A stretch of 29,045 nt of DNA, taken from positions 1 through 29,045 of the IMG/VR virus record IMGVR_UViG_3300045999_008713; one strand, written 5' to 3'. This document shows positions 3,554-29,045 of the stretch, piece by piece. The notes under the pieces are model-generated. The model searched no databases. It was given only the letters and a program-made list of their open reading frames with translations, and was not told the origin of the DNA. Source of the stretch: a virus. Made by a program: the position numbers and the translations under genes. Position 1 is the first letter of the stretch, and every line of letters begins with the position of its first letter.

Positions 3554-3559
3554 ATGCAG

Positions 3560-3565: not shown

Positions 3566-3570
3566 GCTGC

Positions 3571-9888: not shown

Positions 9889-9893
9889 AGGGA

Positions 9894-9899
9894 TATTTA
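9894..9899 (-). promoter_or_regulatory. T4-late-like TAAATA box (minus strand)
   Basis: Read on the minus strand, CTAAATA is followed by 5 nt (TCCCT) and then the ATG of the GT-A gene at 9888. This is the same 5-nt spacing as at 3560-3571 and puts the predicted +1 on the start codon. No convincing sigma70 -35 lies upstream. Short motif, moderate support. Confidence 0.4.
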
Positions 9900-10748
9900 G
9901 TGATCAAAACAGTGGCCTATTTTCCTTTGCAAGCAGCATTAAATTCCACAGCAGTGATGGGCGCGGTGTTGGATGCTATGCGTAAGCAAGGAATAAAAAC
10001 AAAAGAAAATTCTCTTGATTGCGATGCAGTAATCATATGGTCAGTGCTGTGGTACGGTCGCATGTCTGCCAATCAAGCTGTGTACAAACACTACAGGAGT
10101 CAAGGCAAACCGGTGATTGTGATCGAAGTAGGAGCCTTGTATCGTGGCAACACTTGGAAAATTTCAGTAAATCATGTCACAAGAGACGGATATTATGGGC
10201 ACACGCTCAATCTTGACCCAGATCGCCCCCGCCAGCTAAAGATCAGTTTGGCTTATCAGATGCAGTCAAAGTCACACATTGTGATTGCAGCACAACACAA
10301 ACACAGTCTGCAAGTCAGTAACTTGCCCAGTATGGATCAGTGGGTATTGGATACCATTGCACAGGTGCGGCAGCACAGTGATCGGCCAATTCATGTAAGA
10401 CCTCATCCAAGATCTCGATTGCACTTACCGTCATTGCCTGCAGGTATTACAGTAGAACAACCCAGATTGATCAATGGAACCTATGACAGTTACGATATCC
10501 ATTTTGATTGCCATGCAGTGATCAACTACAATTCGGGCCCTGGCATTCAAGCTGCCATAGCTGGCAGCAGACCTGTGGTACATACCAGCAGTTTGGCTTA
10601 TCCAGTTTCAGTAGACATGGCCAACATTGAAAATCCATACGACATTGATCGTGAACAGTGGTTGATTGAAATCTGTCATACTGAATATACACCAGATGAA
10701 CTAAGAGCAGGCACATGGCTAAAAAGAATAGAGTCAGCATTGGCATAG
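9900..10748 (+). CDS. GT-B-like glycosyltransferase family member 5
   Basis: A 282-residue protein starting with GTG (9900). Shared family features are VIEVGALYRGN in place of the DxGYFG element, RDGYYGH, a clear HVRPHPRSR, CHAVINYNSGPGIQAAIAGSRPVV in the loop position, VDMANIENPYDIDREQW and TPDELRAGTW at the end. RPHP plus the NSGPGIQAAxAG loop is the strongest capsule-transferase-like signature of the five. It diverges from the minus operon with an 11-nt gap and overlaps the next gene by 34 nt. Confidence 0.65.
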   Translation: MIKTVAYFPLQAALNSTAVMGAVLDAMRKQGIKTKENSLDCDAVIIWSVLWYGRMSANQAVYKHYRSQGKPVIVIEVGALYRGNTWKISVNHVTRDGYYGHTLNLDPDRPRQLKISLAYQMQSKSHIVIAAQHKHSLQVSNLPSMDQWVLDTIAQVRQHSDRPIHVRPHPRSRLHLPSLPAGITVEQPRLINGTYDSYDIHFDCHAVINYNSGPGIQAAIAGSRPVVHTSSLAYPVSVDMANIENPYDIDREQWLIEICHTEYTPDELRAGTWLKRIESALA

Positions 10749-11452
10749 TAGACTGTGCTTGTGTGATACACGGCACTGGGTACAATTGGATCTATGTTGA
10801 TCATCTGTACAACATGTTGAATCGGTGGTTGCCTGGCGGTGTCAGACTGCATGTTTTTACCGAACAAGAACGACCAGTGCCGCCCCACATGATCAAACAT
10901 GTGTTGGATGATTGGCCAGGTGTGGCTGGACCTAAAAAATCCTGGTGGTACAAATTGCAAATGTTCAATCCAGCACATTATCAAGGCAACTTGTTGTATT
11001 TTGACCTAGATTGTGTGATAGTGGCAGATCTATCATGGATCACTGCTCTGGATACAGCCTATTTTTGGACTTTGAAAGATTTTAAGTATCTGCAACAACC
11101 TGCCTGGAGTCACATGAACAGCAGTGTGATGTGGTGGAACACTGAAAAGTTTGCCTGGGTCTGGGATCAATTCAACCAGCTGGGTAGAGATTCGGTGATT
11201 CGCCGCTGGCACGGTGATCAAGACTTTATCAATGCTACCATTGACCATAATAAGAAAAGATATTTTGATGTTCGACGTTTTCATAGTTGGCGTTGGCAAG
11301 CCTGGAACGGTGGCATGAACTTTCAAAGTCGAAAACACAACGCACCTGGCCAAGGCACACGCATTGCACCAGATGTGTGTGCTTTGGTTTTTCACGGTCA
11401 TCCAAAACCTCATCAAATCAATGATCCTGTGATTCAAAATTTTTGGCAATAG
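10715..11452 (+). CDS. GT-A glycosyltransferase with DLD motif
   Basis: A 245-residue protein with MAKKNRVSIGIVDCACVIHG at the start. KSWWYKLQMF (residues 75-84) precedes the DxD motif DLD (97-99) in LLYFDLDCVIV. HGDQDFIN and the closing VFHGHPKPHQ are characteristic of a family of phage and bacterial GT-A proteins in which this final HGxPKPH loop lies near the metal site. The 34-nt overlap with the previous gene means a tight operon; no better start is evident. It ends the glycan island; a new sigma70 promoter follows within 20 nt. Confidence 0.8.
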   Translation: MAKKNRVSIGIVDCACVIHGTGYNWIYVDHLYNMLNRWLPGGVRLHVFTEQERPVPPHMIKHVLDDWPGVAGPKKSWWYKLQMFNPAHYQGNLLYFDLDCVIVADLSWITALDTAYFWTLKDFKYLQQPAWSHMNSSVMWWNTEKFAWVWDQFNQLGRDSVIRRWHGDQDFINATIDHNKKRYFDVRRFHSWRWQAWNGGMNFQSRKHNAPGQGTRIAPDVCALVFHGHPKPHQINDPVIQNFWQ

Positions 11453-11959: not shown

Positions 11960-12202
11960 ATGAAAGGAAAATTCAATATGAACTTGAAAGTCAAAGCTTT
12001 GTTGTTGACCCTGGGTGCCCTGGGTGGCAGTGTAGTGGCAGCCCTAGCCACTGTGGAAATTATAAAGATGATCAGTATTGATCTGCTGCCCTGGATGGGC
12101 GTAGGGTTTTTGATGATCATGGCCGTTTATGTTCTTTATAACATGATCTTGGGTCAGCTGCAAGACCAGGCCAAAATCCAGCAAATGATCGAAGAAAAAT
12201 AA
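11960..12202 (+). CDS. Small two-helix membrane protein
   Basis: An 80-residue protein from the ATG at 11960 (74 residues from the ATG at 11978). Two hydrophobic helices are visible: ALLLTLGALGGSVVAALATV near the N-terminus, and LLPWMGVGFLMIMAVYVLYN in the middle. A short charged amphipathic tail ends EEK. There is no recognisable family. The 11960 ATG is at the predicted +1 of its promoter, while 11978 has an AAAGGA ribosome site about 10 nt upstream, so either or both could be used. Likely an inner-membrane protein of the infected cell; function unknown. Confidence 0.6.
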   Translation: MKGKFNMNLKVKALLLTLGALGGSVVAALATVEIIKMISIDLLPWMGVGFLMIMAVYVLYNMILGQLQDQAKIQQMIEEK

Positions 12203-12232
12203 CAAAAACAGTGGCAAAAAGCCACACAAAAC

Positions 12233-12264
12233 GGCGGGTTAATTTGGTTGACCATTAATTCGCC
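12233..12264 (+). promoter_or_regulatory. Inverted repeat spanning the -35 of the AAA promoter (possible operator)
   Basis: GGCGGGTTAAT (12233-12243) and ATTAATTCGCC (12254-12264) pair over 11 positions with two G-T pairs, and the -35 hexamer lies in the 10-nt centre. A repressor dimer site or a leader hairpin of read-through transcript would both fit. A small GTGGC/GCCAC hairpin (12211-12225) lies just upstream without a T-run. Confidence 0.4.
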
Positions 12265-12276
12265 ATTTGCTATAAT
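12248..12276 (+). promoter_or_regulatory. Strong sigma70 promoter for the AAA+ ATPase unit
   Basis: TTGACC at 12248-12253, a 17-nt spacer and a perfect TATAAT at 12271-12276. Unlike the other sigma70 promoters here it leaves a leader of about 36 nt (predicted +1 near 12283) with a strong Shine-Dalgarno, TAAAGGAG at 12305-12312, six nt before the ATG at 12319. This is the best-equipped expression signal in the window. Confidence 0.85.
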
Positions 12277-12318
12277 AGATGCATAGTAAGAAACAACCGC
12301 ACACTAAAGGAGCCAACC

Positions 12319-13341
12319 ATGAGTGCAATTCGAGTCATCAACGGTAACTACCGCGGCACCCCTGTCATTGACACTGTGTTTGAACTGGTGTCAGGTTTTC
12401 AAACTGGTGCTCGTGGCGGCTATGTCACTGTCAAAAACAACGGCATCTTCCCTAAGTGCCCTGAAACGATCCGAGTGCGAGTTGAAGATATTTCGGATAT
12501 CGAGTACACTACCCCAATGACACAAGAAAACACTGTGAAATTTGAAAAGCCTGCGGCTGCGGCCGAAACTGATGAGCAGGCCATGGATCGTATCCGTGAG
12601 CGTTTTGAAATCCTGCAAGAAATGACCAAGGCCTGTGTCAGTGGTGACATTCGTGCCATGATTGTGTCGGGCCCTCCTGGCGTGGGCAAGAGCTACGGTG
12701 TCGAGCAAGAAATTGACAAGGCCTGTTTGTTTGACAAGCTGGCCAACAAACGACTTCGCGCTGAAGTTGTCAAAGGCTCAGCCACTCCCATCGGCCTGTA
12801 TCAAACTCTGTACAAATACAGTGACTCCAACTGTGTGGTTGTGTTCGACGACTGCGACAGCATCCTGCTGGATGACGTGGCACTGAACCTGCTGAAAGGC
12901 GCACTGGACTCAGGCAAGAAGCGCAAAATTTCTTGGTTGAGCGAGAGTTCCACTCTGCGTCGCGAAGGCATCCCAGATCAGTTTGAGTTCAAAGGTTCGG
13001 TGATTTTCATCACCAACTTGAAGTTCGACACCATGAAGAGCCAGAAGCTGCGCGATCACTTGGATGCACTGCAAAGCCGCTGCCACTACTTGGATCTGAC
13101 CTTGGACACCATGCGTGACAAGCTCTTGCGTATCCGGCAGATTGCCAAAGATGGCGTGCTGTTCGCAGACTATGATTTTGAGCCTGCTGTGCAAGACGAC
13201 ATCATTGACTTCATGAATGTCAACAAAGATCGTCTGCGTGAAGTCAGCCTGCGCATGGCACTGAAGATTGCGGATCTGCGCAAACTCAGTGTGATGAACT
13301 GGAAGCGCCTGGCCGAGACCACTTGCATAAAGGCAGCTTAA
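12319..13341 (+). CDS. AAA+ ATPase
   Basis: A 340-residue protein. Residues 1-about 70 form a beta-rich N-terminal domain (GARGGYVTVKNNG, IRVRVEDISD). The AAA+ core follows with Walker A GPPGVGKS (118-125) and Walker B VVVFDD (173-178), with sensor-1-like IFITN after GSVI. SRCHYLDL may include an arginine-finger or sensor-2-type residue. It does not look like gp44 clamp loader, lacking the usual N-terminal entry and Zn or C-terminal collar pattern; it resembles the ATPases of uncertain role found in many phages and plasmids. It is followed after 1 nt by a small membrane protein and then an intrinsic terminator. Its codon use looks richer in GC-ending codons than the radical SAM genes. Confidence 0.85.
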   Translation: MSAIRVINGNYRGTPVIDTVFELVSGFQTGARGGYVTVKNNGIFPKCPETIRVRVEDISDIEYTTPMTQENTVKFEKPAAAAETDEQAMDRIRERFEILQEMTKACVSGDIRAMIVSGPPGVGKSYGVEQEIDKACLFDKLANKRLRAEVVKGSATPIGLYQTLYKYSDSNCVVVFDDCDSILLDDVALNLLKGALDSGKKRKISWLSESSTLRREGIPDQFEFKGSVIFITNLKFDTMKSQKLRDHLDALQSRCHYLDLTLDTMRDKLLRIRQIAKDGVLFADYDFEPAVQDDIIDFMNVNKDRLREVSLRMALKIADLRKLSVMNWKRLAETTCIKAA

Positions 13342-13675: not shown

Positions 13676-14800
13676 ATGCCTTTTTGTTACGCACCATGGA
13701 CCAACATTGATATCAGTCCGCAGGGCGAAATTTCTCCATGCTGTAAATTTCAAATGTCGGCGCATGACAGCAAGTTCAATGTTCAAACTCATTCTTTGAC
13801 TGAATATTTTGACAGTGATTTTCTTTCTTCGGTGAAAGAAGCCATGGAACAACACCATTGGCCCAAAGGATGTGAGCGTTGTAAAATAGAAGAACAGCAT
13901 AGCATACCCAGTAAACGGCTATTGGATCGTGAACGGTGGAGTCAACAGTATCAAGATTGGGATAAAAACAGCAACGGCTGCATTACCGCCAGCGTGGCCT
14001 TTGGTAATACTTGCAATCTCAAATGTATCACTTGCAGCAGTTACAGCAGCAGTAAATGGCACAAAGAATCCATGGCTATTGCCGGAGTTGCCCACAGCAC
14101 AGTCAAATTTTATCAGAAAGATTTTGTTGACCAACTGGTCACTCATGCTCCCAAGTTAATTCATCTTGACATCCCCGGCGGGGAGCCGCTGTTGTCTGGA
14201 GTGCCAGATCAGCACAGATTACTGCAACATTACATTGATTCTGGGCAAGCTCAAAACATGACGTTGCATTACACTACCAATGCCACAGTGTTTCCTGACC
14301 CACAATGGTGGCAACTTTGGCAGCATTTTGCCAAAGTTGAAATACAACTCAGCATAGATGGGTTGGACAAGCACTACCAATACATTAGATTTCCTGCATC
14401 GTGGTCTACTTTGCTGACCGTCATTGACCAGTATCTTGCAATGCCAAAATGCAATGTAAACCTTGCTGTGAGTCACACCGTCAGTGCCTACAATATTTTT
14501 TACTTGGATGAATTTGTCAGTTGGTGTTCCAAAACAGGTTTGCCCGAACCTTGGTTGGGAAGAGTTCACAATCCAGTACACATGAGGCCAACTGTTTGGC
14601 CCAGGTTGACACGCGAAAAAATTATTGCTAAACTACGCAATAGTTCATGGCCTTTCATGCAAGCATGGATATCGTTGTTGGAAACCAGCGATGATTCGCA
14701 ATGGTATTCATTGTTTTGCAGTAGAGTTAGAAAACATGATCAGTATCGATCACTGTGCTTTGAATCAGTATTTCCAGAAATGGCATCATGGATCCCTTGA
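13676..14800 (+). CDS. Twitch-type radical SAM protein, class B (copy 1)
   Basis: A 374-residue radical SAM protein. The SAM/[4Fe-4S] motif CNLKCITC gives Cys113, Cys117 and Cys120. IPGGEPLLSG is the GGE motif and IQLSIDGLDKHYQYIRF lies in the barrel. The N-terminus FCYAPWTNIDISPQGE followed by PCCKF, and KGCERC near 65-69, are the extra cysteines of the twitch group. Class B (FC...CC, about 373 aa) includes this protein and the one at 26261. It begins 38 nt after the terminator; an AT-rich TAAATA box ends 4 nt before its ATG, a possible late-type promoter one nt off the spacing seen elsewhere. Substrate unknown. Confidence 0.85.
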   Translation: MPFCYAPWTNIDISPQGEISPCCKFQMSAHDSKFNVQTHSLTEYFDSDFLSSVKEAMEQHHWPKGCERCKIEEQHSIPSKRLLDRERWSQQYQDWDKNSNGCITASVAFGNTCNLKCITCSSYSSSKWHKESMAIAGVAHSTVKFYQKDFVDQLVTHAPKLIHLDIPGGEPLLSGVPDQHRLLQHYIDSGQAQNMTLHYTTNATVFPDPQWWQLWQHFAKVEIQLSIDGLDKHYQYIRFPASWSTLLTVIDQYLAMPKCNVNLAVSHTVSAYNIFYLDEFVSWCSKTGLPEPWLGRVHNPVHMRPTVWPRLTREKIIAKLRNSSWPFMQAWISLLETSDDSQWYSLFCSRVRKHDQYRSLCFESVFPEMASWIP

Positions 14801-16092
14801 CAAGTCGGAAAACTCTTCCCATCATGGCCGAGTTAGAAACTCGTAGCCAGTTTTTTTGCCCGGCCAAATGGACCGAACTGTATCTATATCTCAATCACGG
14901 TACATCTAACAGTTGCCATCATCCCATTCCACATGTGATACCCAAGGAATCACTGTCTAATCCTGCTGCTTTACACAACACCGATCACAAGTTGACTCAG
15001 CAAAAAATGATGCTGGCTGGACAAAGACCGCCTGAGTGTCACATGTGTTGGCATATTGAGGATATGAATGACACTGTGGTCAGTGATCGAATTCACAAAA
15101 GTCAACAATGGCAAGACTATATTTCCACTCTGCAAATAGATGCAAACTTTGTACCCCCTTTCATAGAATTGGTTTTTGACAATTACTGCAATTTAGCATG
15201 CAGTTACTGCGATGCTGGCCAAAGCTCAACTTGGGCAGCCAAAATACATCAAAGGCCGTTGCACTTGGTTACTGATCACAGACAGTTATATAAAAAAATA
15301 CACATAGCACCTGGGAGTACCAAATCAGAATATTTTGATGCTTGGATGGTCTGGTGGCCCCAGGTCAAAAAACAAATCAAAGTGATCAAGATCAGCGGCG
15401 GCGAGCCGCTGATCAGTAAAAACTTTTGGCAGTTTGCCAAAAAATTTGAACCAAATGATGCGTACCGAGTAGATATCAACTCCAACCTTAGTGTTGATAC
15501 TGCCTTGATAGATCAATTTATTGATGCCACCAGCAATCTGCCCGCCGCTGGTATTGGTGCCAGCATTGATGCAGTGGGCGACCTGGCCCAGTATGTTAGG
15601 CAGGGGCTTGACTATGAACAATTTTTGATCAATGTGGATCGTTGGTGTAAAAGCAATCACACTCAAAATAAATTGTGGTTGCAGAGCACTATGAACATTC
15701 TTAGCATATGGGGTCTTGTTGACAAATTAAATCTTTGCCTAGAACTGCGAAAAAAATATCCCAGCAAAATGGGCACATTGTACACTACAATTGTACGGCA
15801 CCCTGAGTTTCAAAGTGTACTGCTATTGCCGTTGCCAATTAGACAGCAACTCCACAACCAGCTGTGTGATTGGTTAATTGCCAACCAACAACATCTCACG
15901 ACCAAAGAGCGTGACATGGTTGCCCGCACCAGTGCCTATCTAATTTCAAATCCAGATCATCTAAGAGGCTTTGATATACAACAGTTGACTCTTGACTTCA
16001 AGGCATTTTTGCAGTATTATGATCAAACAGCCAAGCAAAGTTACAAACAAATATACCCACACCAGTTCTGTGAATGGGTTGAATCTATATGA
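14788..16092 (+). CDS. Twitch-type radical SAM protein, class A (copy 2)
   Basis: A 434-residue radical SAM protein. CNLACSYC gives Cys134, Cys138 and Cys141, ISGGEPLISKNF is the GGE motif, and GIGASIDAVGD lies in the barrel. The N-terminus has FFCPAKWTE then TSNSCHH, and PPECHMCWHIED matches the SGGCEYC region of copy 1. The ATG at 14788 overlaps the previous gene by 13 nt; an ATG at 14824 (MAELE...) would give a 422-residue protein closer in length to copy 1 and is a good alternative. It is directly linked to a class B copy and overlaps uvsW by 4 nt (ATGA). Confidence 0.83.
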   Translation: MDPLTSRKTLPIMAELETRSQFFCPAKWTELYLYLNHGTSNSCHHPIPHVIPKESLSNPAALHNTDHKLTQQKMMLAGQRPPECHMCWHIEDMNDTVVSDRIHKSQQWQDYISTLQIDANFVPPFIELVFDNYCNLACSYCDAGQSSTWAAKIHQRPLHLVTDHRQLYKKIHIAPGSTKSEYFDAWMVWWPQVKKQIKVIKISGGEPLISKNFWQFAKKFEPNDAYRVDINSNLSVDTALIDQFIDATSNLPAAGIGASIDAVGDLAQYVRQGLDYEQFLINVDRWCKSNHTQNKLWLQSTMNILSIWGLVDKLNLCLELRKKYPSKMGTLYTTIVRHPEFQSVLLLPLPIRQQLHNQLCDWLIANQQHLTTKERDMVARTSAYLISNPDHLRGFDIQQLTLDFKAFLQYYDQTAKQSYKQIYPHQFCEWVESI

Positions 16093-17558
16093 AACAAGCT
16101 ACCATAGTCATACGTGACGAAGTCAATATCAAGATAGAAGGTCTGGATCTTGACATGCGCCGCAGACTGGTCACGGCGTTCAAATATGATGTACCATATG
16201 CTCGCTACTTGCCGGCAGTGCGACTGGGTCGATGGGATGGCAAGGTCAGTTACTTTCAACTGGGTGGATCTACATATACCAACCTGCTGCCTGAAATATT
16301 GCCCTTGCTGGAGCAATACAATTGGGATGTTGAACTAGACGATCAACGTGATTACTCAGTCACATTTGACTTTGAATTGGTAGAAGAAAATCGCTGGGCA
16401 TACAAAACATGGCCCAAAGGACATCCTGCCGCTGGTGAACCTATTATGTTGCGGGACTATCAGGTAGAAATTGTCAACAACTTCTTGCAGAATCCTCAGT
16501 GCATACAAGAAGTGGCCACAGGTGCAGGTAAGACCATAATGACTGCTACCATGAGTGCCTGTGTAGAGCCGTATGGCAGATCAATTGTGATTGTACCCAA
16601 CAAGAGTCTGGTGACACAGACAGAAAAAGACTATCGCAATGTGGGGCTGGATGTGGGCGTTTACTTTGGTGACCGCAAAGAACACGGACATCAGCACACC
16701 ATCTGCACCTGGCAAAGTCTAAATGTTCTGTTGAAGAACACCAAAGCAGGCGTAGGCGAAGCCACCATACAGGACTTCATTGAAGATGTGGTCTGTGTGA
16801 TTGTGGACGAGGTGCACATGGCCAAGGCTGATGCACTGAAAACCTTGCTCACAGGTGTCATGGCCAGAGTGCCAATTCGCTGGGGTTTGACCGGCACCAT
16901 ACCCAAAGAAAAATTTGAAAGCCAGTCCTTGCTGGTTAGTTTGGGTCCTGTGATTGGCAAGTTGAGTGCCAACGAACTGCAACAGCAAGGAGTGTTAGCT
17001 CAGTGCCATGTGAACATTGTGCAACTACAGGATCATGTTGAATACGCCAACTATCAGAGTGAGCTTAAATATCTGCTGGAAGAGTCAGGGCGTCTAGATG
17101 CCATGGCCGAGCTCATAGAGCATGTGAATCAAACTGGCAATACCTTGGTGCTGGTGGATCGTGTGGCAGCAGGCACAGCACTGGTGTCACGACTAGGCGA
17201 CCGTGCTGTGTTTGTATCCGGCGCAACCAAGGCCAAAGATAGACAGGACGAATATGATGAGGTGGCAGAGGCAACAGATAAAATCATTGTGGCCACATAT
17301 GGCGTGGCCGCAGTGGGTATCAACATCCCCCGTATTTTCAATCTTGTGCTTGTTGAACCCGGCAAGAGTTTTGTGCGAGTCATACAAAGCATTGGGCGGG
17401 GAATCCGCAAAGCCGAAGACAAAGACCACGTGCAAATCTGGGACATAACCAGTACCTGCAAATTTGCTCGAAGGCATTTGACCAAACGCAAGGCCTACTA
17501 TCGTGAGGCCAACTATCCTTTTAGTCAGGAAAAATTAGAATGGATGATTCAAAAATAA
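16089..17558 (+). CDS. uvsW: UvsW-like superfamily 2 DNA/RNA helicase
   Basis: A 489-residue helicase (T4 UvsW is about 500 aa). In T4 it unwinds R-loops and branched DNA and moves forks, switching replication from origin-driven to recombination-driven. Seen here: an N-terminal beta domain (to about 110) with LGRWDGKVSYF; Q-like element LRDYQ; motif I ATGAGKT (143-149); motif II DEVH (240-243); motif III-like GLTGT; and motif VI QSIGRGIRKAED. The start overlaps the radical SAM stop and the last 19 nt overlap the next gene. The DEVH box, N-terminal domain and neighbourhood support UvsW over a host helicase. Confidence 0.93.
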   Translation: MKQATIVIRDEVNIKIEGLDLDMRRRLVTAFKYDVPYARYLPAVRLGRWDGKVSYFQLGGSTYTNLLPEILPLLEQYNWDVELDDQRDYSVTFDFELVEENRWAYKTWPKGHPAAGEPIMLRDYQVEIVNNFLQNPQCIQEVATGAGKTIMTATMSACVEPYGRSIVIVPNKSLVTQTEKDYRNVGLDVGVYFGDRKEHGHQHTICTWQSLNVLLKNTKAGVGEATIQDFIEDVVCVIVDEVHMAKADALKTLLTGVMARVPIRWGLTGTIPKEKFESQSLLVSLGPVIGKLSANELQQQGVLAQCHVNIVQLQDHVEYANYQSELKYLLEESGRLDAMAELIEHVNQTGNTLVLVDRVAAGTALVSRLGDRAVFVSGATKAKDRQDEYDEVAEATDKIIVATYGVAAVGINIPRIFNLVLVEPGKSFVRVIQSIGRGIRKAEDKDHVQIWDITSTCKFARRHLTKRKAYYREANYPFSQEKLEWMIQK

Positions 17559-20630: not shown

Positions 20631-20992
20631 TCAAATCTATTTTGCAATCAGGAAGGTATCTCACAGTGACTGGCAACGGTACCTATCCTTACATCAGCAA
20701 TAACGGCAACAGTCTGGGCACAGGCAATATGCGATTCAACACTCAAACTCAAAACGTCGAAGTCTATGATGGTAACCAATGGATCACGTGTAGCACTGGT
20801 TCTGTGTCAGTGGGTCTCAACGGCGCTGCTGAGTCGCTGTTGGACTGGGCTCGCATCAAGCGAGATGAAGAATCACGCATTGTGGCCTTGGCTGCCAAGC
20901 ATCCCACAGTGGCCGATGCTCTTGATGCAGTAAAGAAAGCACAAGAACAATTACAAATAGCAACCATACTGTGTGAGACCAATGAGCGCTGA
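20627..20992 (+). CDS. Conserved protein with virion-like N-domain and helical tail
   Basis: A 121-residue protein. The N-terminal half (GRYLTVTGNGTYPYIS, GTGNMRFNTQTQNVEVYDGNQW) is the beta-rich MRFNxxTQNxEVYDGxxW element common in phage fibre and neck-type proteins. After about residue 65 is a charged helical tail (LLDWARIKRDEESRIVALAA, ADALDAVKKAQEQLQIATIL), probably a coiled coil. It may be a small structural or morphogenesis protein, or may simply reuse the module. It has its own sigma70 promoter, odd for a late structural gene. It overlaps the next gene by 11 nt. Confidence 0.6.
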   Translation: MIKSILQSGRYLTVTGNGTYPYISNNGNSLGTGNMRFNTQTQNVEVYDGNQWITCSTGSVSVGLNGAAESLLDWARIKRDEESRIVALAAKHPTVADALDAVKKAQEQLQIATILCETNER

Positions 20993-21551
20993 CATTGACA
21001 TTGATGTACCCAACAGAGATGCTGTGTTACAACTCATACAGCATGTGCCAGCACGTCTTGGCAACGGACGCAGGCACAATTCTGGCGTGTATGTCACTGA
21101 AATTCCCAGAGACATTGTGAATGGCTGTGCAGCCATAGATCATGAAGCAGCTGAAGCCAGGGGCTACTTCAAGATTGACTTGCTGAATATGACTGTGTAT
21201 CAGTTGATACGTGATCCTGCGCACTATGATCAACTGCTGGCACAGGAGCCTGTTTGGTCAAGACTGTGGCTGGATCCTGAGTGGGCCCGGCAGCTGGTGC
21301 ACGTTGGAAACTATACTGATTTGTTGGCCATAATGAAGCCAGATTCAATTCCCAGAATGGCTGCTTTTATATCTATTATTCGCCCAGGCAAGGCACATTT
21401 ACAACGCAAACCCTGGGCCGAAGTTTTTGCATCAGTGTGGGATGGCAATGACACTAGAGGTTACACGTTCAAAAAGTCACATGCTGTGAGCTATGCTGCT
21501 CTGGTAGCGCTGCACATGAACTTAATCCATGCGCCTGACCAAGGTAATTGA
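20982..21551 (+). CDS. Miniature DnaE/PolC-like polymerase core protein
   Basis: A 189-residue protein related to bacterial DNA polymerase III alpha. ADIDIDVPNRD (residues 3-13) corresponds to the PDIDxDF catalytic motif, HNSGV (32-36) to the HAAGV element, GYFKIDLLNM (61-70) to the KFDFLGL third-aspartate motif, IIRPGK (132-137) to the RPGP motif, and YTFKKSHAVSYAAL (161-174) to the FNKSHA segment. All three catalytic Asp positions are kept, yet E. coli DnaE is about 1160 residues and spaces D403 and D555 some 150 apart; here it is 58-60. It lacks PHP, the GSAAGSLV motif, beta-binding and OB parts. The ATG at 20982 is chosen over the in-frame GTG at 20973. It could be a regulator, a decoy, or a minimal nucleotidyltransferase. 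Confidence 0.75.
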   Translation: MSADIDIDVPNRDAVLQLIQHVPARLGNGRRHNSGVYVTEIPRDIVNGCAAIDHEAAEARGYFKIDLLNMTVYQLIRDPAHYDQLLAQEPVWSRLWLDPEWARQLVHVGNYTDLLAIMKPDSIPRMAAFISIIRPGKAHLQRKPWAEVFASVWDGNDTRGYTFKKSHAVSYAALVALHMNLIHAPDQGN

Positions 21552-21899
21552 TTTTCTTTTGCTTTTTTTCTTGGCAATGTCCTGCAGGCTGCACACTGGG
21601 CCGTGCAAAATTTCCAAATCTTTGTTGCTGAACGTTCGCAGGGTAAATCTAAATCTATCCCAATCGCTGCGCAAAAAAATGTTGATGGGTATAGATCTGT
21701 TGCTTTCCCACCACCATTGACTGGCCAGTTCTAAAAACAATACTTTTTCTTGTTGGTCTATCACAGAACCAAAATCATAGATTGTGGTCACAGTGTCATC
21801 TTTGTTTTGGATCACCCCTACATATTCAGCGTTGGCATAGCTGCACAATGTAATAAAGGGATATTTTTCAGCCAGTTTATCAAAGATTGTATTGCCCAT
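21522..21899 (-). CDS. Conserved antisense-oriented phage protein (125 aa)
   Basis: A 125-residue soluble protein of unknown function on the minus strand among plus genes. Recognisable stretches are IYDFGSVIDQQEKVLFLELA, WWWESNRSIPINIFL, GPVCSLQDIAKKKSKRK and a final SITLVRR. I recall this combination (WWWESNR, GPV, basic linker, LVR) as a recurrent conserved protein in T4-like phages without assigned role. It overlaps the end of the mini-DnaE gene by 30 nt tail to tail. Its start faces the virion-protein promoter. No strong promoter of its own was found; TTGAGT, 17 nt, AACAAT on the minus strand is weak. Confidence 0.65.
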   Translation of the reverse strand: MGNTIFDKLAEKYPFITLCSYANAEYVGVIQNKDDTVTTIYDFGSVIDQQEKVLFLELASQWWWESNRSIPINIFLRSDWDRFRFTLRTFSNKDLEILHGPVCSLQDIAKKKSKRKSITLVRRMD

Positions 21900-21904
21900 A
21901 AATA
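21897..21904 (+). promoter_or_regulatory. T4-late-like promoter CATAAATA before virion protein
   Basis: CATAAATA differs from the T4 late octamer TATAAATA at one base. The predicted +1 is about 21910, giving a 13-nt leader to the ATG at 21923. It precedes the only clearly virion-like gene in the window, as expected for a late promoter. Confidence 0.6.
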
Positions 21905-21922
21905 TTGTTATTCGAGAATCCT

Positions 21923-22996
21923 ATGTACTCAACTACCGTTTACTTATACCAACAGATAACCAAAGTTTTGTTAGTTGACACCAGCGGTGGGTATTTTCAA
22001 GCGAGGTATGATCCAGTGTATGCAAAATCTCTAACCATCAACAAAGGTGTAGACAACGTACTGTTGTTTGAATTTATAAATCAAGAACAAAAGCCAGTGA
22101 ACATCACTGGATCCACTTTTGTGTTTAGACTGATGAATCAAACTGGTGATAAACTGTTGTTGGAAAAACCCATGACCAGTCTAAGCAATGCATTGGGCAG
22201 AGTAAAAGTAGTGTTGGATACCAATGACACCATTAATTTGGTAGCACAACCAGCCAGCTATTCTATTCAGCGAACATCTGGAGACTATGTTCAGGCTGTG
22301 TACGTGGATGCCAACAGTCAGGCTCGAGCTGACGCCAATGTGGTGGACAGTGTTTTGCCACAGTTTATACCCAGCAAAGCCTTGACCATTCCTACCATCT
22401 ACGGTAAAGCACAGCAGATTGTGCCTGGGCCCACCAATTGGCCTGATTGGGCATTGTATCCTCAACCTGTGAACACCACACAGTTGACTGAATTTTACAG
22501 CAGTTTTATTGATACTTCACAACAGAGTCTTACCACAGTCAAAATGGACCTAGACCATTTCACCGGCACTGTTAAATTTCAAGCAGCACAAGACTATGAA
22601 TCTGTATGGTACAACGTCACACCCAGCTATGATTTTCTTGATGAAACCAGCTCACAGTACTTCAACATAGAAGGTTTTCATCCTCTAATTAGAGCAGCTT
22701 TCAACAACAGTCAAGGGTTCGGTGCACAGGCCACAGCTCAAGTCAGCGAAGACGGTGTGGTCACTGGTATTTCAATTACCAATTCTGGGCAGGGGTATGT
22801 GGCCGCACCCAAAGTTCAAATCCTGGGCAATGGTAGTGGTGCCGAAGCTGTGGCCACTATTGGTGCTGATGGCAGTGTGTCAACCATTACATTGACCAAT
22901 GGCGGATCAGGCTATTTGCCAATTCAATATCAAGGCACACAACAAGCCACTGTTTTGATAACCACAGGTACAATCACCAACCTCCAATATCGTTGA
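21923..22996 (+). CDS. Virion/baseplate-type structural protein with BppU-like N-domain and C-terminal repeats
   Basis: A 357-residue protein. Residues about 30-100 (SLTINKGVDNVLLFEFINQE, ITGSTFVFRL, LEKP) resemble the phage baseplate-upper-protein (BppU) immunoglobulin-like N-domain. The middle is beta-rich with WPDWALYPQPVN. From about residue 267 to 345 are two related units ending in NSGQGYVAAP and NGGSGYLPIQ, each with ATAxVxxDGxV and ITN/LTN, typical of fibre and adhesin stalks. No signal peptide or enzyme motif is seen. The ATG at 21923 is preferred to the in-frame TTG at 21905. It follows a T4-late-like promoter; a primase promoter overlaps its last codons. Confidence 0.7.
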   Translation: MYSTTVYLYQQITKVLLVDTSGGYFQARYDPVYAKSLTINKGVDNVLLFEFINQEQKPVNITGSTFVFRLMNQTGDKLLLEKPMTSLSNALGRVKVVLDTNDTINLVAQPASYSIQRTSGDYVQAVYVDANSQARADANVVDSVLPQFIPSKALTIPTIYGKAQQIVPGPTNWPDWALYPQPVNTTQLTEFYSSFIDTSQQSLTTVKMDLDHFTGTVKFQAAQDYESVWYNVTPSYDFLDETSSQYFNIEGFHPLIRAAFNNSQGFGAQATAQVSEDGVVTGISITNSGQGYVAAPKVQILGNGSGAEAVATIGADGSVSTITLTNGGSGYLPIQYQGTQQATVLITTGTITNLQYR

Positions 22997-23021
22997 TCTG
23001 CTGTGGACGATATTGTATAAT
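22993..23021 (+). promoter_or_regulatory. Sigma70 promoter, leaderless start for primase
   Basis: -35 TTGATC at 22993-22998 overlapping the upstream stop, a 17-nt spacer, perfect -10 TATAAT at 23016-23021, then 6 nt to the ATG at 23028. It separates the late structural gene from the replication genes. Confidence 0.78.
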
Positions 23022-23027
23022 AGCTAG

Positions 23028-23996
23028 ATGCTTGACATCCTGACGTATCTGCCAGCCCGACGCAAACAGACTCCGTCAGGCTGGATCAGTTTTAATTGCC
23101 CGGTTTGTGACGATCGACGCACACGAGGTGGCCTTAAACCCAGTGACACTGGCTGGAGCTACCATTGTTTTAACTGTTCCACCACTGCTAGTTTTGTTCT
23201 GGGTCGAGGTCTAGGCCATCGAGCTAGAAAACTGTTGTCAGCACTGCATGTGCCTGAGCAAGAAATTGACCTGCTGAATCTTGAAAGCATGCGGCACCGC
23301 AGTGTGCACGGTATCTTGGACGAACGTGCCAAGCTGGCCAACCAACTCAGTGCCATTGAGTTTGAAGAAATGGATGACTTTCCTCCAGGCAGCGAAGTAA
23401 TCACTCCTGAACTGGTCAAGTATTGGCAGTATTTGAGAGACCGAGGCGTGCCTGAAGACTTTCCGGCCATGACTACCATACGCACTGATGGCGTTCACTG
23501 GGTGCGTGAACATATCACCATACCGTTTACCTACGATGGTCGTGTGGTGGGATGGACTGCTAGAATGCTGGATCGACGTGCACCCAAGTTCATCAGTCAC
23601 GCACAGCCTGGCTATGTGTTTGGCATTGATTTACAACCCAACAACTGGCAACATGTGTTGGTCATGGAAGGCATCTTTGATGCCCTCAGCACCGGTGGCG
23701 TGGCCGTGATGCATAACACCATTTCAGATGCACAGGCCAGGCTGATACGCACCTTGGATCGTGAGATCACTGTGGTCCCAGATCAAGACAAATCTGGTAT
23801 TGAATTAATTGATCGTGCTGTGGAACTGGGCTGGGCAGTGAGCATACCCAACTGGCCTGACTGCAAAGATCCCAACGATGCTGTGCGAAAGTATGGACGC
23901 TTGGCAACACTGCTAACTATTATGCAGGCACGTGAAACCAGCCGTGTCAAAATTGAATTGAGAAAGAAGCAGTTGCAAAAGCAATGGAAACAGTAA
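23028..23996 (+). CDS. 61: gp61-type DNA primase
   Basis: A 322-residue primase (T4 gp61 is about 340). It makes the RNA primers for lagging-strand synthesis together with the gp41 helicase. The zinc ribbon is CPVC (24-27) and CFNC (47-50). After a linker the TOPRIM core shows VLVMEGIFDAL (Glu), VVPDQDKSG (the DxD pair) and NWPDCKDPNDAV. A Lys/Arg-rich tail ends at 322. It has its own sigma70 promoter and probably a leaderless start, and overlaps the following gene by 13 nt. Confidence 0.9.
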   Translation: MLDILTYLPARRKQTPSGWISFNCPVCDDRRTRGGLKPSDTGWSYHCFNCSTTASFVLGRGLGHRARKLLSALHVPEQEIDLLNLESMRHRSVHGILDERAKLANQLSAIEFEEMDDFPPGSEVITPELVKYWQYLRDRGVPEDFPAMTTIRTDGVHWVREHITIPFTYDGRVVGWTARMLDRRAPKFISHAQPGYVFGIDLQPNNWQHVLVMEGIFDALSTGGVAVMHNTISDAQARLIRTLDREITVVPDQDKSGIELIDRAVELGWAVSIPNWPDCKDPNDAVRKYGRLATLLTIMQARETSRVKIELRKKQLQKQWKQ

Positions 23997-24859
23997 GAAA
24001 AATAGATTTTTTTGGCGGGCTACATGGCAATTATCTTGAACTAGTGGTTAACTATTTCATTGATCAAAACAATACCTACGATATTGCTTTGCCACAGTTT
24101 ACCAGTCTTGGTGCCTGTCATTTGAAAAACAAAAACACCTCTTACGTGCCCATTACTCGAGCTGGACACTTCAGCAGTGGACGTTACCAACAGCCATTTG
24201 ATCATGATGATTTTGTAATTCGCATAGTGCCAGAAGAACATGATTTGTTGATTGGAATCACCAATAGTTTTCTAAGAGCCGGAGACCAGCACTTAGATTT
24301 ACAACAGTTGCAGCATGACACTCACAAAAAACTTTCAGCTTTGCCCAAACTGTCTTTATTTTTAAAAACTTTGATTTTGAACCATGGAGTTCAGCCTCAC
24401 TACCCCAAATGCATTTTAAGAAAATATTTTTATGCAATGTTTGATGATTATGAGCACGGTCTAGGAATGTTCACCAAATGGCAGCCGGCTCACAAATTTC
24501 ACAATTTCAAATTTCGTAGTTTTTTCACCTTTTCAGATTTTTTTGAAAGTTTACAAAAGCTTGCAAAGTTTGTAAACATGGAGTTTGTACCAACACCGCA
24601 GCTGATCACTCTGCATCAAAATTTTTTGGCTGTCAATCAAGGGTTGGCAAGTGAGGTCAAGTGCCAACAAATAATTGAATCTATTGTGTGTGGTAGATCA
24701 CAGTGGATAGATCTAAACATTTTAGAAGAAGCATGGATAAATTACAAAATATCCAGAACGTTCAACTTATACCAACTGCCTGAGTTAGAAACAAATAACT
24801 ATCCTAATAACACAAAAACAATTTCTGATATTTGTTATTCAAAAGGAACGATGTGCTAA
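23984..24859 (+). CDS. Unidentified 291-aa protein between primase and helicase
   Basis: Opens with DFFGGLHGNYLELVVNYFI, a glycine-rich turn followed by a helix that resembles the phosphate-binding entry of sulfotransferase-like proteins, though the family's KSGTT-type loop is not present. Later FDHDDFVIRIV, HTHKK-type and HNFKFRSFFTFSDFFESLQK segments, and an Asn-rich C-terminus, are not diagnostic. It is AT-rich and low in GC-ending codons compared with primase and helicase, suggesting an inserted moron. Its last codons overlap the gp41 start. A sulfotransferase-type role would suit the glycan island but is a weak guess. Confidence 0.5.
   Translation: METVRKIDFFGGLHGNYLELVVNYFIDQNNTYDIALPQFTSLGACHLKNKNTSYVPITRAGHFSSGRYQQPFDHDDFVIRIVPEEHDLLIGITNSFLRAGDQHLDLQQLQHDTHKKLSALPKLSLFLKTLILNHGVQPHYPKCILRKYFYAMFDDYEHGLGMFTKWQPAHKFHNFKFRSFFTFSDFFESLQKLAKFVNMEFVPTPQLITLHQNFLAVNQGLASEVKCQQIIESIVCGRSQWIDLNILEEAWINYKISRTFNLYQLPELETNNYPNNTKTISDICYSKGTMC
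24841..24847 (+). promoter_or_regulatory. Shine-Dalgarno deciding the gp41 start
   Basis: AAAAGGA lies 5 nt before GTG 24853, inside the preceding gene, and selects that GTG over the upstream in-frame TTG at 24832. The ATG at 24850 is in the frame of the preceding gene. Confidence 0.7.
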
Positions 24860-26259
24860 AAGATTACTCTGTTGACGTTCAACGATTGTTTTTGGAAATG
24901 ATGCTGGAGGACGCAGCCAGTTATGTTCGTGTTCAAAACATCTACAATCCAGACAACTTTGATCGCAGTTTGAGATCTGCGGCCAAGTTTATCAAAGAGC
25001 ATTCTGATCAGCATAAAACGCTGCCGGACCGTACACAGATTTCGGCCACCACTGGGGTGAAGTTGGAGCCAGTGCCCGATCTCAACGAAGGCCACTATGA
25101 GTGGTTCATGACTGAGTTTGAAGCATTTACTCGACGCCAAGAGCTGGAACGTGCCATTCTCAAGTCGGCAGACCTGTTGGAAAAAGGCGAGTTTGAGCCT
25201 GTGGAAAAACTGATCAAAGATGCTGTGCAGATCAGTTTGACCAAAGATCTTGGCACAGACTTTTGGCTGGATCCTGAAGGCATGTTCAGCAAATACTTTG
25301 ATGCTGGCGGACAAGTCAGCACAGGCTGGGGACAACTGGATCGGCTGCTGTATGGTGGATTCAGCAGAGGTGAACTCAATATCTTTGCCGGCGGTTCAGG
25401 CTCAGGCAAGAGTCTAGTGATGATGAACATTGCACTGAACTGGGTGCAGCAAGGCTTGCATGGTGTTTATATTACATTGGAACTGAGCGAAGAACTCACT
25501 GGTCTACGCACAGCAGCCATGTTGACCAATATGAGCACCAAAGAGATTCGCAAAGACAAAGAAACAGCAGCTCTCAAAGTCCGGCTGGTGGGTAAAAAAT
25601 CTGGCAGCTACCAAGTCAAGGCTTTGCCAGCACAGAGCAACATCAATGACATTCGTGCGTTCTTGAAAGAGTATCAGATCAAGACCGGACACAGAGTGGA
25701 CTTTATCATGGTAGACTACTTGGACTTGCTAATGCCGGTGAGTGCCAAGGTCAGCCCCAACGACTTGTTTGTCAAAGACAAGTATGTTTCAGAAGAATTG
25801 AGAAATCTAGCCAAAGAGCTGGGTATCTTGATGGTCACTGCATCGCAGTTGAACCGATCAGCTGTGGAGGAAATTGAGTTTGACCACTCGCACATATCGG
25901 GTGGTATCTCAAAGATCAACACAGCAGACAATGTGTTTGGTATCTTTACGTCACGAGCTATGAAGGAACGTGGCAAGTATCAAATACAGTGTATGAAGTC
26001 GCGCTCGTCAACGGGCGTGGGGCAAAAAATTGACTTGGAGTACAACATTGAAACCATGCGCATTACTGACCTGGCCGAAGACGAACAGTATCAAGAGTTC
26101 AAGAAACGAGCACCTTCAATCTACGAATCAATCAAGGCCAAAAGCCAGATTGTTCCAGGCGAAGCCACTGCCACTGAACCTGACGAGCCAGGCAAAATCT
26201 CTGCTGATGTTCAAAGTACCAAACTGAAACAGTTATTGGGCAAGATCAAAACTGGCTAA
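24853..26259 (+). CDS. 41: gp41-type replicative DNA helicase (DnaB family)
   Basis: A 468-residue RecA-fold helicase from the GTG at 24853. T4 gp41 is a hexamer that unwinds the fork and works with gp61. N-terminal helical domain to about 135, then linker, then Walker A AGGSGSGKS (180-187). ITLELSEEL follows the position of the DnaB-type motif, IMVDYLDLLMP is Walker B, VTASQLNRSAVEE the DnaB-family Gln loop, and HISGGISKINTADN a late motif, with a basic CMKSRSS element. The C-terminal tail is long and acidic, ending near QLLGKIKTG. The GTG/SD start is described at 24841-24847. It follows the primase in the same run, with one inserted gene between them. Confidence 0.92.
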   Translation: MLKDYSVDVQRLFLEMMLEDAASYVRVQNIYNPDNFDRSLRSAAKFIKEHSDQHKTLPDRTQISATTGVKLEPVPDLNEGHYEWFMTEFEAFTRRQELERAILKSADLLEKGEFEPVEKLIKDAVQISLTKDLGTDFWLDPEGMFSKYFDAGGQVSTGWGQLDRLLYGGFSRGELNIFAGGSGSGKSLVMMNIALNWVQQGLHGVYITLELSEELTGLRTAAMLTNMSTKEIRKDKETAALKVRLVGKKSGSYQVKALPAQSNINDIRAFLKEYQIKTGHRVDFIMVDYLDLLMPVSAKVSPNDLFVKDKYVSEELRNLAKELGILMVTASQLNRSAVEEIEFDHSHISGGISKINTADNVFGIFTSRAMKERGKYQIQCMKSRSSTGVGQKIDLEYNIETMRITDLAEDEQYQEFKKRAPSIYESIKAKSQIVPGEATATEPDEPGKISADVQSTKLKQLLGKIKTG

Positions 26260-26260
26260 T

Positions 26261-27379
26261 ATGGAAAATATTTTTTGTCCAATGATCCATGGAGGTCTAA
26301 ATGTTGATCTCAAAGCCGACAATGATCTTGGTTACAATCAATGTTGTTTGAGCACTACACCAATGACTTTTATTGACAGAGACCAGGTCAACTGGAACTG
26401 TGATCAATTGGTCGATAATCGTGATAAAAACAATAGTAATCAATGGCTTTCTGGATGTTGGCAATGTGAAACTTTAGAAAAAACAGGTGCAAAAAGTTTT
26501 CGAAAGTCAATGATTGAAAAGTTTGGGGTAGATAAAAATCTAACCGGACCGCAACGGATTGACTTATTGTTTGATCGTAGCTGTAATTTGGCTTGCAGAA
26601 CCTGTGGGCCCAAATCTAGCACGTTTTGGGAAAAACATTTAAAAGAAAATAATTTACCAGTGCGCAGTGCACCACCTTCTTATAGTGGGGAGAGAATCAA
26701 ACAAATCTTGCAATCGTTGAACTTAGAAAATTTAGGCATGGTGCAGTTTTGCGGTGGTGAAACTTTAATGGGCAATGGTTATTGGCAAGTTGCACAGTGG
26801 TTGGCAGAAAATGCACCTAATCCAAAACAAAATCTTGAGTTAGGATTTCAAACCAATGGAACGCAACCCATCGATCCTAGATGGTTTGAAGTAATAGATA
26901 AATTTAAGTTAGTCAAACTAATGATCAGCATTGACGGTGTAGGCAATAAATTTGAATACTTACGTTGGCCAGCTAGTTGGAATCAAACAGTTGATAATAT
27001 TATGACTCTGAGGGAAACATTGCCTAGCAATGTGATGTTTTTTGTTCAAGAATGCACAAGTTGTTTAAATTTACTTTATCACAGTGAAGTAAAAGATTGG
27101 GTATCCAAACATTTCAATACCAACAGAGAAGGAGACCCAGTTGATCATACAACACAACTGGCCATGCATGGATATCTTGATCCTAAAAACATTACTCAAG
27201 AATATGCTGATGTTATTGGCAAAACATCAATGGCACCTATACTTCCTAAAAATTGGAAGGAAAATCCTGAATGGATAAAATTTTTCCTCAAAGAAACTGA
27301 AAAATTTGATAAAATTCGAAATGAAAATTGGAAAAAAGTTTTTCCAGAGGTAGCTGAACTGTATCGTCGATATCTCTAG
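26261..27379 (+). CDS. Twitch-type radical SAM protein, class B (copy 2)
   Basis: A 372-residue radical SAM protein. CNLACRTC gives Cys108, Cys112 and Cys115, FCGGETLMGN is the GGE motif, and MISIDGVGNKFEYLRWPASW is very close to the corresponding stretch of the 13676 protein. The N-terminus FCPMIHGG...NQCC and SGCWQCETLEK carry the twitch cysteines. It starts 1 nt after the helicase gene and is the most AT-rich gene of the region, so it is probably a recent insertion. Its stop overlaps the convergent polymerase stop by 4 nt. Substrate unknown. Confidence 0.85.
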   Translation: MENIFCPMIHGGLNVDLKADNDLGYNQCCLSTTPMTFIDRDQVNWNCDQLVDNRDKNNSNQWLSGCWQCETLEKTGAKSFRKSMIEKFGVDKNLTGPQRIDLLFDRSCNLACRTCGPKSSTFWEKHLKENNLPVRSAPPSYSGERIKQILQSLNLENLGMVQFCGGETLMGNGYWQVAQWLAENAPNPKQNLELGFQTNGTQPIDPRWFEVIDKFKLVKLMISIDGVGNKFEYLRWPASWNQTVDNIMTLRETLPSNVMFFVQECTSCLNLLYHSEVKDWVSKHFNTNREGDPVDHTTQLAMHGYLDPKNITQEYADVIGKTSMAPILPKNWKENPEWIKFFLKETEKFDKIRNENWKKVFPEVAELYRRYL

Positions 27380-29045
27380 TTTAGTTTTAGATAATCATCA
27401 ATATCCATGGCCGCAACGTTTTTACGTTCTACTTGCAAAAACTGAGATCCATCTCTACTTTGTCTTTGACCCTGTCCCACAATCACTGACCCGTTAAAAT
27501 ACTTTACAGGTCTATCTACAATTACATCTACATATTCTCCCTCGCCTACTCCCAGGGTAATAAAGTGAATGTACTGTTGTCGATCACGTCGGAACACTCG
27601 TGAGTTGGCCACTATGCCAGCAAACTGATAGTATTCTGAATACAGTCCTTGCACACCCATGTTGGGCAAAAATCCTGGTGAATTCCAAGCACCGTGCTCT
27701 CGAAAACTCTCCACAGGATCTTCGGCGATCCAATTAGCAAACCCTAGATCACGTAAATCCCATCCTGCTCGTTTGGCTTCGTTGCGATAGACCCAACGAG
27801 CATATGACCCTTGACAGTGCTTGAGAGCTGCTCGCCAAAACTCGCGAGGATTGTGGGCCTTTTGATAGGCCAAGGCCCAGATCAGCCTGCCAAGATTCAC
27901 AGCATGAGCACGACACAGCCCAAAGCCTGACAGATTCAACATCTCTCGGTAGATGTCGTCTTTTAGTGGATGGTCGCCCAGACGATTCATGAACTCCATG
28001 ACTTTTTCTTCGTTCTTTTTGGCAAATGCACGACGATACATGTCAGCTTCGTATGCATTGACACCGATCAGTTTCATGATGCGTTCTATGGCATCGTCTT
28101 CGCACACAATGGCACGTTCTTTGACACCGTCCGCAGTCCAGTCACGAAACCAGGCTGCTTTGCGTCGACCTTCCATGGCCACAGGCCGCACCAGGGCAGT
28201 GGCAAACACACAGTCTGCCACAGACGTGGGTTTTATGGCTCGGAACAATCGTCGCATGGCTGGGCTTTCGCCCTGGGTCACACCCAGCACATCGCCACGA
28301 GCCAGCAGGTCTGCTGTGGCTTCGTCTTTGGTGGGATACTCGTGTATCATGCGTGTAGGGTCAATTTCCATGAGCTGGCTCAAGCCACGATTGGCCAAGA
28401 TGTCTACCTTGAGATGTTCAAGGTCTTCAACTTCGTTTTTGTCCAGCAAGATGAGATTGTCTTCGCGGAACAGGCTTTTGGGTAGCTGACGATCAAACAC
28501 AATCACGCCACCACAGTGCTTGCTCAAGCAGCGAGTTTTGCCCATGAGCTTTTTCTCTATGCGGCGTGCTTCGGTTTCATCCACTCCCAGTTTCTTGTAG
28601 TCAATGTCTCGGGGCAAGCGTCCTCGGGCACCCAGTCTACGTGCTGCTTCACGACGTGCTGACTTTTCTTTGTATAACACATAGTTGGATATTCGGGCAG
28701 TGCGTCCAGGCCAAGCATCAAATATACGCTGCATGGCCAACTCTTGTTTGTGATGTGGCACATCAATGTCCACGTCAGGCAAGTCATCTCTCAGGGGGTT
28801 GAGAAAGCGAGCAAAAGGTATGTTCCACTCTATGGGATCCACATCAGTTATGCCCATGAGATAGCACACCAGGCTGGAGCCTGCTGAGCCACGAGTCATG
28901 TGGGGAATGTCTGAGTTGAGATCCAGCACACGCCGGATTTTGAGAAAATATTCTGTGAAGCGTTGAGCTACTATTACTTCAAATTCTTCTACTAGTCTGA
29001 GTTGGTATTGTTCTTGATCAGGACAAGGTCTGCGAAATTGTTTGA
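27376..29045 (-). CDS. dnaE: DnaE-family (family C) DNA polymerase III alpha subunit, 5' partial
   Basis: The frame is open to the window edge, so the N-terminal part, including any PHP domain, is missing. Visible elements in order: YQLRLVEEFEVIVAQRFTEY and the following YFLKIRRV, as in DnaE; TRGSAGSSLVCYLMGI (the GSAAGSLVAY motif); LPDVDIDV (catalytic Asp pair near 28762-28776); LSKHCGGVIV (HAAG-like); LKVDILANRG (third Asp at about 28402-28404); DVLGVTQGESPAMRRL; ALVRPVA; FGLCRAHAVN (the KSHA region); and a C-terminal OB-like VDVIVDRPVK, GSVIVGQ. All three catalytic Asp motifs are present. No beta-clamp motif was identified by eye. T4-like phages normally use family B gp43, so this is unusual. 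Confidence 0.88.
   Translation of the reverse strand, partial: KQFRRPCPDQEQYQLRLVEEFEVIVAQRFTEYFLKIRRVLDLNSDIPHMTRGSAGSSLVCYLMGITDVDPIEWNIPFARFLNPLRDDLPDVDIDVPHHKQELAMQRIFDAWPGRTARISNYVLYKEKSARREAARRLGARGRLPRDIDYKKLGVDETEARRIEKKLMGKTRCLSKHCGGVIVFDRQLPKSLFREDNLILLDKNEVEDLEHLKVDILANRGLSQLMEIDPTRMIHEYPTKDEATADLLARGDVLGVTQGESPAMRRLFRAIKPTSVADCVFATALVRPVAMEGRRKAAWFRDWTADGVKERAIVCEDDAIERIMKLIGVNAYEADMYRRAFAKKNEEKVMEFMNRLGDHPLKDDIYREMLNLSGFGLCRAHAVNLGRLIWALAYQKAHNPREFWRAALKHCQGSYARWVYRNEAKRAGWDLRDLGFANWIAEDPVESFREHGAWNSPGFLPNMGVQGLYSEYYQFAGIVANSRVFRRDRQQYIHFITLGVGEGEYVDVIVDRPVKYFNGSVIVGQGQRQSRDGSQFLQVERKNVAAMDIDDYLKLN

Follow-up and report, generated by a model that had tools for sequence, protein, structure and literature searches.

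Why does a virus whose replication and recombination genes resemble those of phage T4 carry among them two relatives of DnaE, the alpha subunit of bacterial DNA polymerase III (Pol III), where a family B polymerase (gp43) would be expected? The question is posed by IMG/VR virus record IMGVR_UViG_3300045999_008713, a virus fragment of 29,045 bases that is everything available of its genome and that was analysed at full length (hereafter, the window). A preliminary description of this DNA had placed two DnaE relatives inside a T4-like replication and recombination cluster, and both are borne out: a 189-amino-acid protein on the plus strand (20982–21551), here called B, and a larger protein on the minus strand (27376–29045), here called LG. 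In the reading proposed here, B pairs with a second small protein, A, encoded elsewhere in related genomes, and the two chains would together make up a reduced Pol III alpha palm, with LG acting as a separate, extra polymerase. We put the probability of this reading at roughly 0.7.

The motifs reported for B (DIDID, HNSGV, KIDLL, RPG, and KKSHA) are all present, in the order in which they occur in DnaE. The open reading frame (ORF) starts with ATG, and a GTG at 20973 would extend it to 192 residues. Nearly all of B matches phrog_11778 ("DNA polymerase," 197 positions; E 1.3e-48), there is a weak match to phrog_405 (E 2.1e-6), and a Pfam scan returned nothing at E 0.1. Relatives with at least 80% query coverage, each below 60% identity, were detected by tblastn in 63 of 50,697 phage records, and the 60 records listed are jumbo phages, apart from a few short records. 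Examples include RaK2, 121Q/PBECO4, GAP32, CBB, PA5oct-like phages, Atu_ph07, Phosso, XacN1, SCTP-2, and CM1. In Atu_ph07 (NC_042013, gp074; 11986–12561 of the fetched locus L083) the annotated start of B (locus position 12067) omits the DIDID motif, and an in-frame ATG lies upstream at 11986. IMG/VR contains at least 594 stretches with B relatives, which, together with ratios of nonsynonymous to synonymous substitution (dN/dS) of 0.152, 0.095, and 0.099 against three relatives, argues that B is conserved beyond chance. A set of 219 B ORFs, mostly fetched by peptide patterns that favour conserved stretches, was reduced to 179 unique sequences with none dropped. Thirteen residues are invariant in all of them (D4, D6, D8, H32, G35, P42, K64, D66, W92, R134, P135, K137, and H167), including the metal-binding aspartates D6, D8, and D66.

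The predicted fold of B points in the same direction. A structure model based on an 83-sequence alignment reached a mean predicted local distance difference test score (pLDDT) of 92.4, and the ten best Protein Data Bank (PDB) chains retrieved with it by Foldseek are all Pol III alpha. In VIA-align superpositions, B aligned with Thermus aquaticus Pol III alpha (3e0d; Z 9.8, 186 residues, 3.7 Å) and with PolC (3f2b; Z 9.8, 187 residues, 3.4 Å), and C-family polymerases occupy the top 14 rows, followed by a row at Z 3.2, in a comparison limited to the families listed. Structure prediction and superposition had been proposed as a check on the small protein; a palm-like fold was found, and the adverse outcome foreseen for that check, the lack of such a fold, did not occur. 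By this model, B corresponds to the palm of DnaE in its C-terminal half.

What B lacks is as informative as what it retains. In Escherichia coli DnaE, regular expressions place GRGS at 360, PDFDVD at 399, KHAGGV at 509, KFDFL at 552, RPG at 637, and NKSHS at 756. The spacing between ADIDID and RHNSGV is 28 residues in B vs. 110 in E. coli DnaE, so that the thumb is gone, and that between IRPG and KKSHA is 31 vs. 119, leaving the fingers nearly gone; the two intervening palm spacings are roughly preserved (33 and 69 in B vs. 43 and 85). The corresponding four spacings in LG are 86, 37, 73, and 92. The shortened stretches are assigned to thumb and fingers on the assumption that they correspond to those regions of known Pol III structures. 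Furthermore, the GS nucleotide-binding loop is absent from B, whose chain begins at the DxD motif. Because the GS/NTP-binding half is missing from its chain and has a gene of its own in each of the 12 named relatives, B is unlikely to be, alone, the minimal enzyme that had been suggested.

That separate gene is A. A search with PF07733 detected one site per genome in all 12 named B-bearing jumbo phages, each matching the profile over its first third alone. The A ORFs, with starts chosen by the analysts, are 169–183 amino acids long, carry GRGSS or GRGSC, and end where B begins. The split point is uniform: GRGS is present in 86 of 86 unique A ORFs, the chain ends 33–35 residues past it in 85 of 85, and none of the 86 runs on into the DxDxD (PDxDID) motif. 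A and B lie 14–224 kb apart in the 12 named phages, by record coordinates, and 97–98 kb apart in two IMG/VR records, G003 and G022. Their co-occurrence is tight: 59 of the 60 listed B records (of 63) are among 60 A records, the exception being a record of 109 kb, and of 15 IMG/VR records of 171–353 kb with A, 13 also have B. At least 592 IMG/VR stretches encode A. No fetched locus has both genes, as expected with flanks of at most 12 kb. A natural fusion was sought among the 219 B and 95 A ORFs, and no ORF matched both profiles; the sole long ORF with a match to the A profile is the LG-type enzyme of LR756508, fetched twice from the same record. In a comparison of profiles, A falls on LG positions 18–97 (probability 92.9).

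LG is built differently. It matches PF07733 (E 5.6e-40) and PF17657 (E 1.3e-14), and its 555 residues in the window are truncated at the 5′ end of the gene by the contig end, with about 11 residues missing by comparison with complete relatives. Complete genes mostly encode about 565–568 amino acids and start about 50–65 residues ahead of the RGS motif, judging from 72 complete ORFs listed, several of which have longer mechanical starts and some of which come from contigs represented twice. No PHP family was detected in a Pfam scan of two complete or nearly complete copies, which returned PF07733 and PF17657. The LG profile aligns with residues 315–788 of E. coli Pol III alpha (E 2e-44), with the aspartates preserved, and the active-site residues of the RGS, PDxDxD, and KxD motifs are retained in 58 of 58 unique sequences. 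Against three relatives, dN/dS is 0.035, 0.045, and 0.092 for LG and 0.019, 0.050, and 0.067 for gp41. Judged by its sequence, LG is a PHP-less, single-chain C-family core whose active site is intact and whose gene is under purifying selection, and the notion of a DnaE gene decayed beside a complete gp43 does not hold for it (dN/dS 0.035–0.092).

The C-terminus of LG carries, after a variable stretch, an [ILMV]xxY[LFY] peptide in 53 of 58 tails vs. 59 of 1971 internal 16-residue windows, for a motif defined after inspection of the tails; two positions of the alignment, I559 and Y562, hardly vary. The gp43 polymerases of T4 and RB69 have a C-terminal clamp-binding peptide, which the LG tail recalls, and by this analogy the peptide may tether LG to the phage sliding clamp.

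Among IMG/VR stretches with LG peptide patterns, 94 of 99 encode a relative, of which the best 80 were taken. The loci tallied comprise 32 with LG and B (window included), 52 with LG and no B (flanks being short in many of these), and 95 with B and no LG; two of the first class, L002 and L119, are one contig, and in another, L168, the contig ends within B. LG is present in just 1 of 17 loci found via B that extend at least 2.5 kb past gp41. In 15 of the 16 loci lacking LG, genes that flank it in the LG-bearing locus L134 come 36 to about 4,200 bp behind gp41; in the remaining one, L064, none of them was seen there. In L072 and L076, which are probably one phage, 36 bp separate the end of the gp41 match from the start of the flanking gene, and the module that comes next shares 90% identity with its counterpart in L134. 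LG has been gained or lost at one site behind gp41. Between the window and L117, synonymous divergence is lower for LG (0.49) and gp41 (0.59) than for B (1.8) and a structural gene (2.7), and the same holds for L119 (LG 0.52, gp41 0.29, B 0.68, structural gene 1.5), which suggests that the LG–gp41 block has been exchanged; in L134, divergence is lower for LG (0.92) but not for gp41 (1.8). A small protein presumed by eye to be NifU/IscU-like is encoded several kilobases upstream of LG in two phage contigs (L134, 2049–2420; L185, 2402–2812).

A tree of 26 sequences and 275 columns was built with A and B concatenated, from an alignment that crosses large deletions, and only two clades in it are claimed. 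One, with support 100, unites LG with the enzyme of LR756508; the other, also with support 100, contains A+B on a long branch. A sister relationship of LG and A/B received a support of 27 and was not adopted. LG and A/B are, as far as this alignment can tell, separate lineages. LR756508, a 484-kb uncultured phage with a family B polymerase and an LG-type enzyme, is the only phage record among those listed to exceed 30% identity (38%) over most of LG, and A and B were not found in it. A derivation of LG from a bacterial genome was considered and rejected: a scan of genome contigs yielded 18 relatives among the matches listed, 17 of them at just 20–24% identity, with titles naming Clostridia, Oscillospiraceae, Bacilli/Bacillales, Clostridium, and Halanaerobium. 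Four of these 17 were labelled PolC in the tree, an assumption made from their length. The eighteenth, a partial match to LG at 41% identity, lies near the end of contig DAKN01000015.1 (9674–10108), binned in a Pacearchaeota metagenome-assembled genome; the contig may be a misbinned phage contig.

Whether these DnaE relatives stand in for gp43 is best judged from longer genomes. A family B polymerase is present in all 13 named records (the 12 B-bearing phages and LR756508) and in 13 of 15 A-bearing IMG/VR records. The idea of a replaced polymerase, raised in the preliminary description, is therefore unsupported in the relatives, to which this result applies, the window being a 29-kb fragment of its own genome. 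Family A polymerase was also sought, and none of the 13 named records has a match above the cut-off. A sub-threshold family A match (E 1.4e-5) occurs in a 456-amino-acid frame of LR756508.1 (241534–242250).

In the reading favoured here, A would supply the GRGSS loop, which in Pol III binds the dNTP triphosphate, and B the metal-binding aspartates D6, D8, and D66 plus the RPG and KKSHA motifs, so that the two chains would form a single nucleotidyltransferase active site that does without PHP, the thumb, and the greater part of the fingers. The pairing is proposed on the basis of the sequences, the B fold, the co-occurrence of the two genes, and their uniform split point; assembly into one active site and template-directed DNA synthesis are what we infer from it. 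Since the B gene is placed between uvsW and gp61/gp41, the most likely role of A/B would be short-patch DNA synthesis in recombination-dependent replication or repair, with the family B gp43 as the main replicase. LG would probably work as an extra polymerase, perhaps clamp-tethered through its C-terminal peptide. The fuller picture, in which some T4-like jumbo phages combine three DNA polymerases of two families, namely a family B replicase, a minimal Pol III alpha of two chains that complete its active site in trans, and an accessory, clamp-tethered, PHP-less, single-chain LG gained or lost at a fixed place behind gp41, has in our judgement an even chance of being right.

Several observations weigh against this reading. 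No PDB match of B reaches E 0.001 in Foldseek, the sequence profile of B reaches solved Pol III structures only at E 0.01 or worse, and B, although it falls in order after A on LG positions 187–302, does so with a weak probability (44.9). The LG structure model is poor (pLDDT 61.7). Two of the 15 A-bearing IMG/VR records lack B and two lack the family B polymerase, and among nine B-bearing IMG/VR records (30–210 kb) only the longest, G003, has both A and the family B polymerase. Lastly, neither A nor a family B polymerase domain (PF00136) was found in the window, and 12 LG-bearing contigs of 32–157 kb yielded neither an A detectable with PF07733 nor a family B polymerase. In G003 and G022, the family B polymerase lies about 145 and 141 kb from B, respectively, beyond the downstream reach of the 12 contigs, which likewise end short of the place where A would be expected.

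The almost complete loss of thumb and fingers, with which Pol III grips DNA and nucleotide, and the retention of the palm motifs would also suit a B that, with A, has been repurposed as a nucleotidyltransferase of the Pol beta superfamily, adding nucleotides, for example, to DNA ends, RNA, or protein. We consider this unlikely, given that B stays between uvsW and gp61/gp41 in most named phages (XacN1 excepted) and has kept RPG and KKSHA, motifs of the template and nucleotide side of Pol III. A second alternative makes B an accessory subunit of LG in LG-bearing phages, A having been lost on the arrival of LG, and it draws on LG being found in 0 of 31 A-bearing records (the positive control, G010, was detected) and on an A detectable with PF07733 being found in 0 of the 12 LG contigs. 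Neither count proves that A and LG exclude each other, an idea we therefore set aside, as the contigs are fragmentary and LG is rare at B loci (1 of 17), which makes 0 of 31 unsurprising; the LG contigs, moreover, stop before the expected site of A. With an LG active site that is complete on its own and both aspartate motifs retained in 25 of 25 unique B sequences from LG-bearing loci, this arrangement appears more doubtful still. That B is a non-catalytic remnant or a decoy blocking host Pol III, as its small size might suggest, is very improbable in view of its invariant metal-binding aspartates (179 of 179), its dN/dS of 0.10–0.15, and its tight co-occurrence with A. The preliminary description had offered accessory and host-inhibitor roles as options for the small protein, and among these the invariant aspartates count against a purely non-catalytic decoy.

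The genes around B and LG fit the T4-like setting. PHROGs matches support the UvsX-like recombinase (58–1113, plus strand; phrog_97, PF00154), the UvsW-like helicase (16089–17558, plus; phrog_16), the gp61-like primase (23028–23996, plus; phrog_47, PF13155), and the gp41-like replicative helicase beside which LG is gained or lost (24832–26259, plus; phrog_19, PF03796). The gp62-like protein named alongside them found no such backing, with no match to the clamp-loader small subunit among 19 window proteins, a subset of the window ORFs, scanned with PHROGs; an AAA protein (12319–13341) has weak clamp-loader matches (E ~0.003). A convergent gene of 125 amino acids and unknown function (21522–21899, minus; phrog_11637), whose 3′ end overlaps that of B, is a candidate for a partner or regulator of B; a homologue directly follows B in 10 of the 12 named phages, with none found there in XacN1 and CM1. 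Beside gp41 and LG lies a radical SAM protein (PF04055; 26261–27379), and the pattern of cysteines in three further ORFs (1364–2617, 13676–14800, and 14788–16092) suggests that they may be its relatives. A run of genes inserted at 3466–11452, with uvsX on one side and the AAA protein on the other, appears by eye to include glycosyltransferase-like genes, a nucleotidyltransferase-like protein, and methyltransferases.

To our knowledge, the split minimal Pol III is among the most reduced polymerase-type cores known. It is also widespread in IMG/VR and hence testable, and, together with LG, it would offer a way to examine the separate contributions of thumb, fingers, and PHP in a C-family polymerase. 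The same genomes raise the question of why phages whose relatives own a family B replicase retain C-family cores at all.

Of the known systems, the closest to B is the one it belongs to. Iyer et al. (2021; PMC7824862) describe group 2.2 jumbo phages that pair a family B polymerase with a minimal Pol III alpha peculiar to phages. Two genes far apart encode its two parts, an N-terminal protein that binds NTP and a C-terminal one that binds Mg and the template, and the authors conjecture that this split form may cooperate in repair or in synthesizing one of the strands. B belongs to the system described there: it shares its family (PHROGs 11127 for A and 11778 for B), its split point, and the presence of a family B polymerase in relatives. 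In a paper on phage CBB, a truncated Pol III alpha of 172 amino acids is mentioned, the same length as A (PMC5259590). The phages with the split form are said by Iyer et al. (2021) to contain no other Pol III domains, and to that statement the LG clade is an exception, the window adding an LG with fingers and thumb regions. Among the matches listed in a literature search, no description of an LG-type enzyme in T4-like jumbo phages was found, and the terms sought were absent from a 2026 review (PMC13282480); LG is thus apparently a previously undescribed PHP-less C-family variant in this phage group.

LG adjoins B in the window yet differs both from the split form and from canonical DnaE as a compact, PHP-less enzyme. 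With bacterial DnaE (E. coli, T. aquaticus, and Mycobacterium tuberculosis) it shares the aspartates and the alignment to E. coli residues 315–788, but it has no detected PHP and no match past residue 788, and measures about 566 amino acids vs. 1160. The DnaE of LR756508 is likewise PHP-less, about 574 amino acids long, 38% identical, and within the LG clade, but the phage in the window has B, whereas LR756508 has a family B polymerase and no A or B was found in it. The full-length DnaE proteins of other phages (Cronobacter Ss1, Streptomyces Zemlya, Rhizobium RHEph10, and Pbunavirus Ab27) are mostly 24–28% identical to LG over the matched part and, unlike LG, are 931–1159 amino acids long, with about 260–390 residues before the match or the palm motif.

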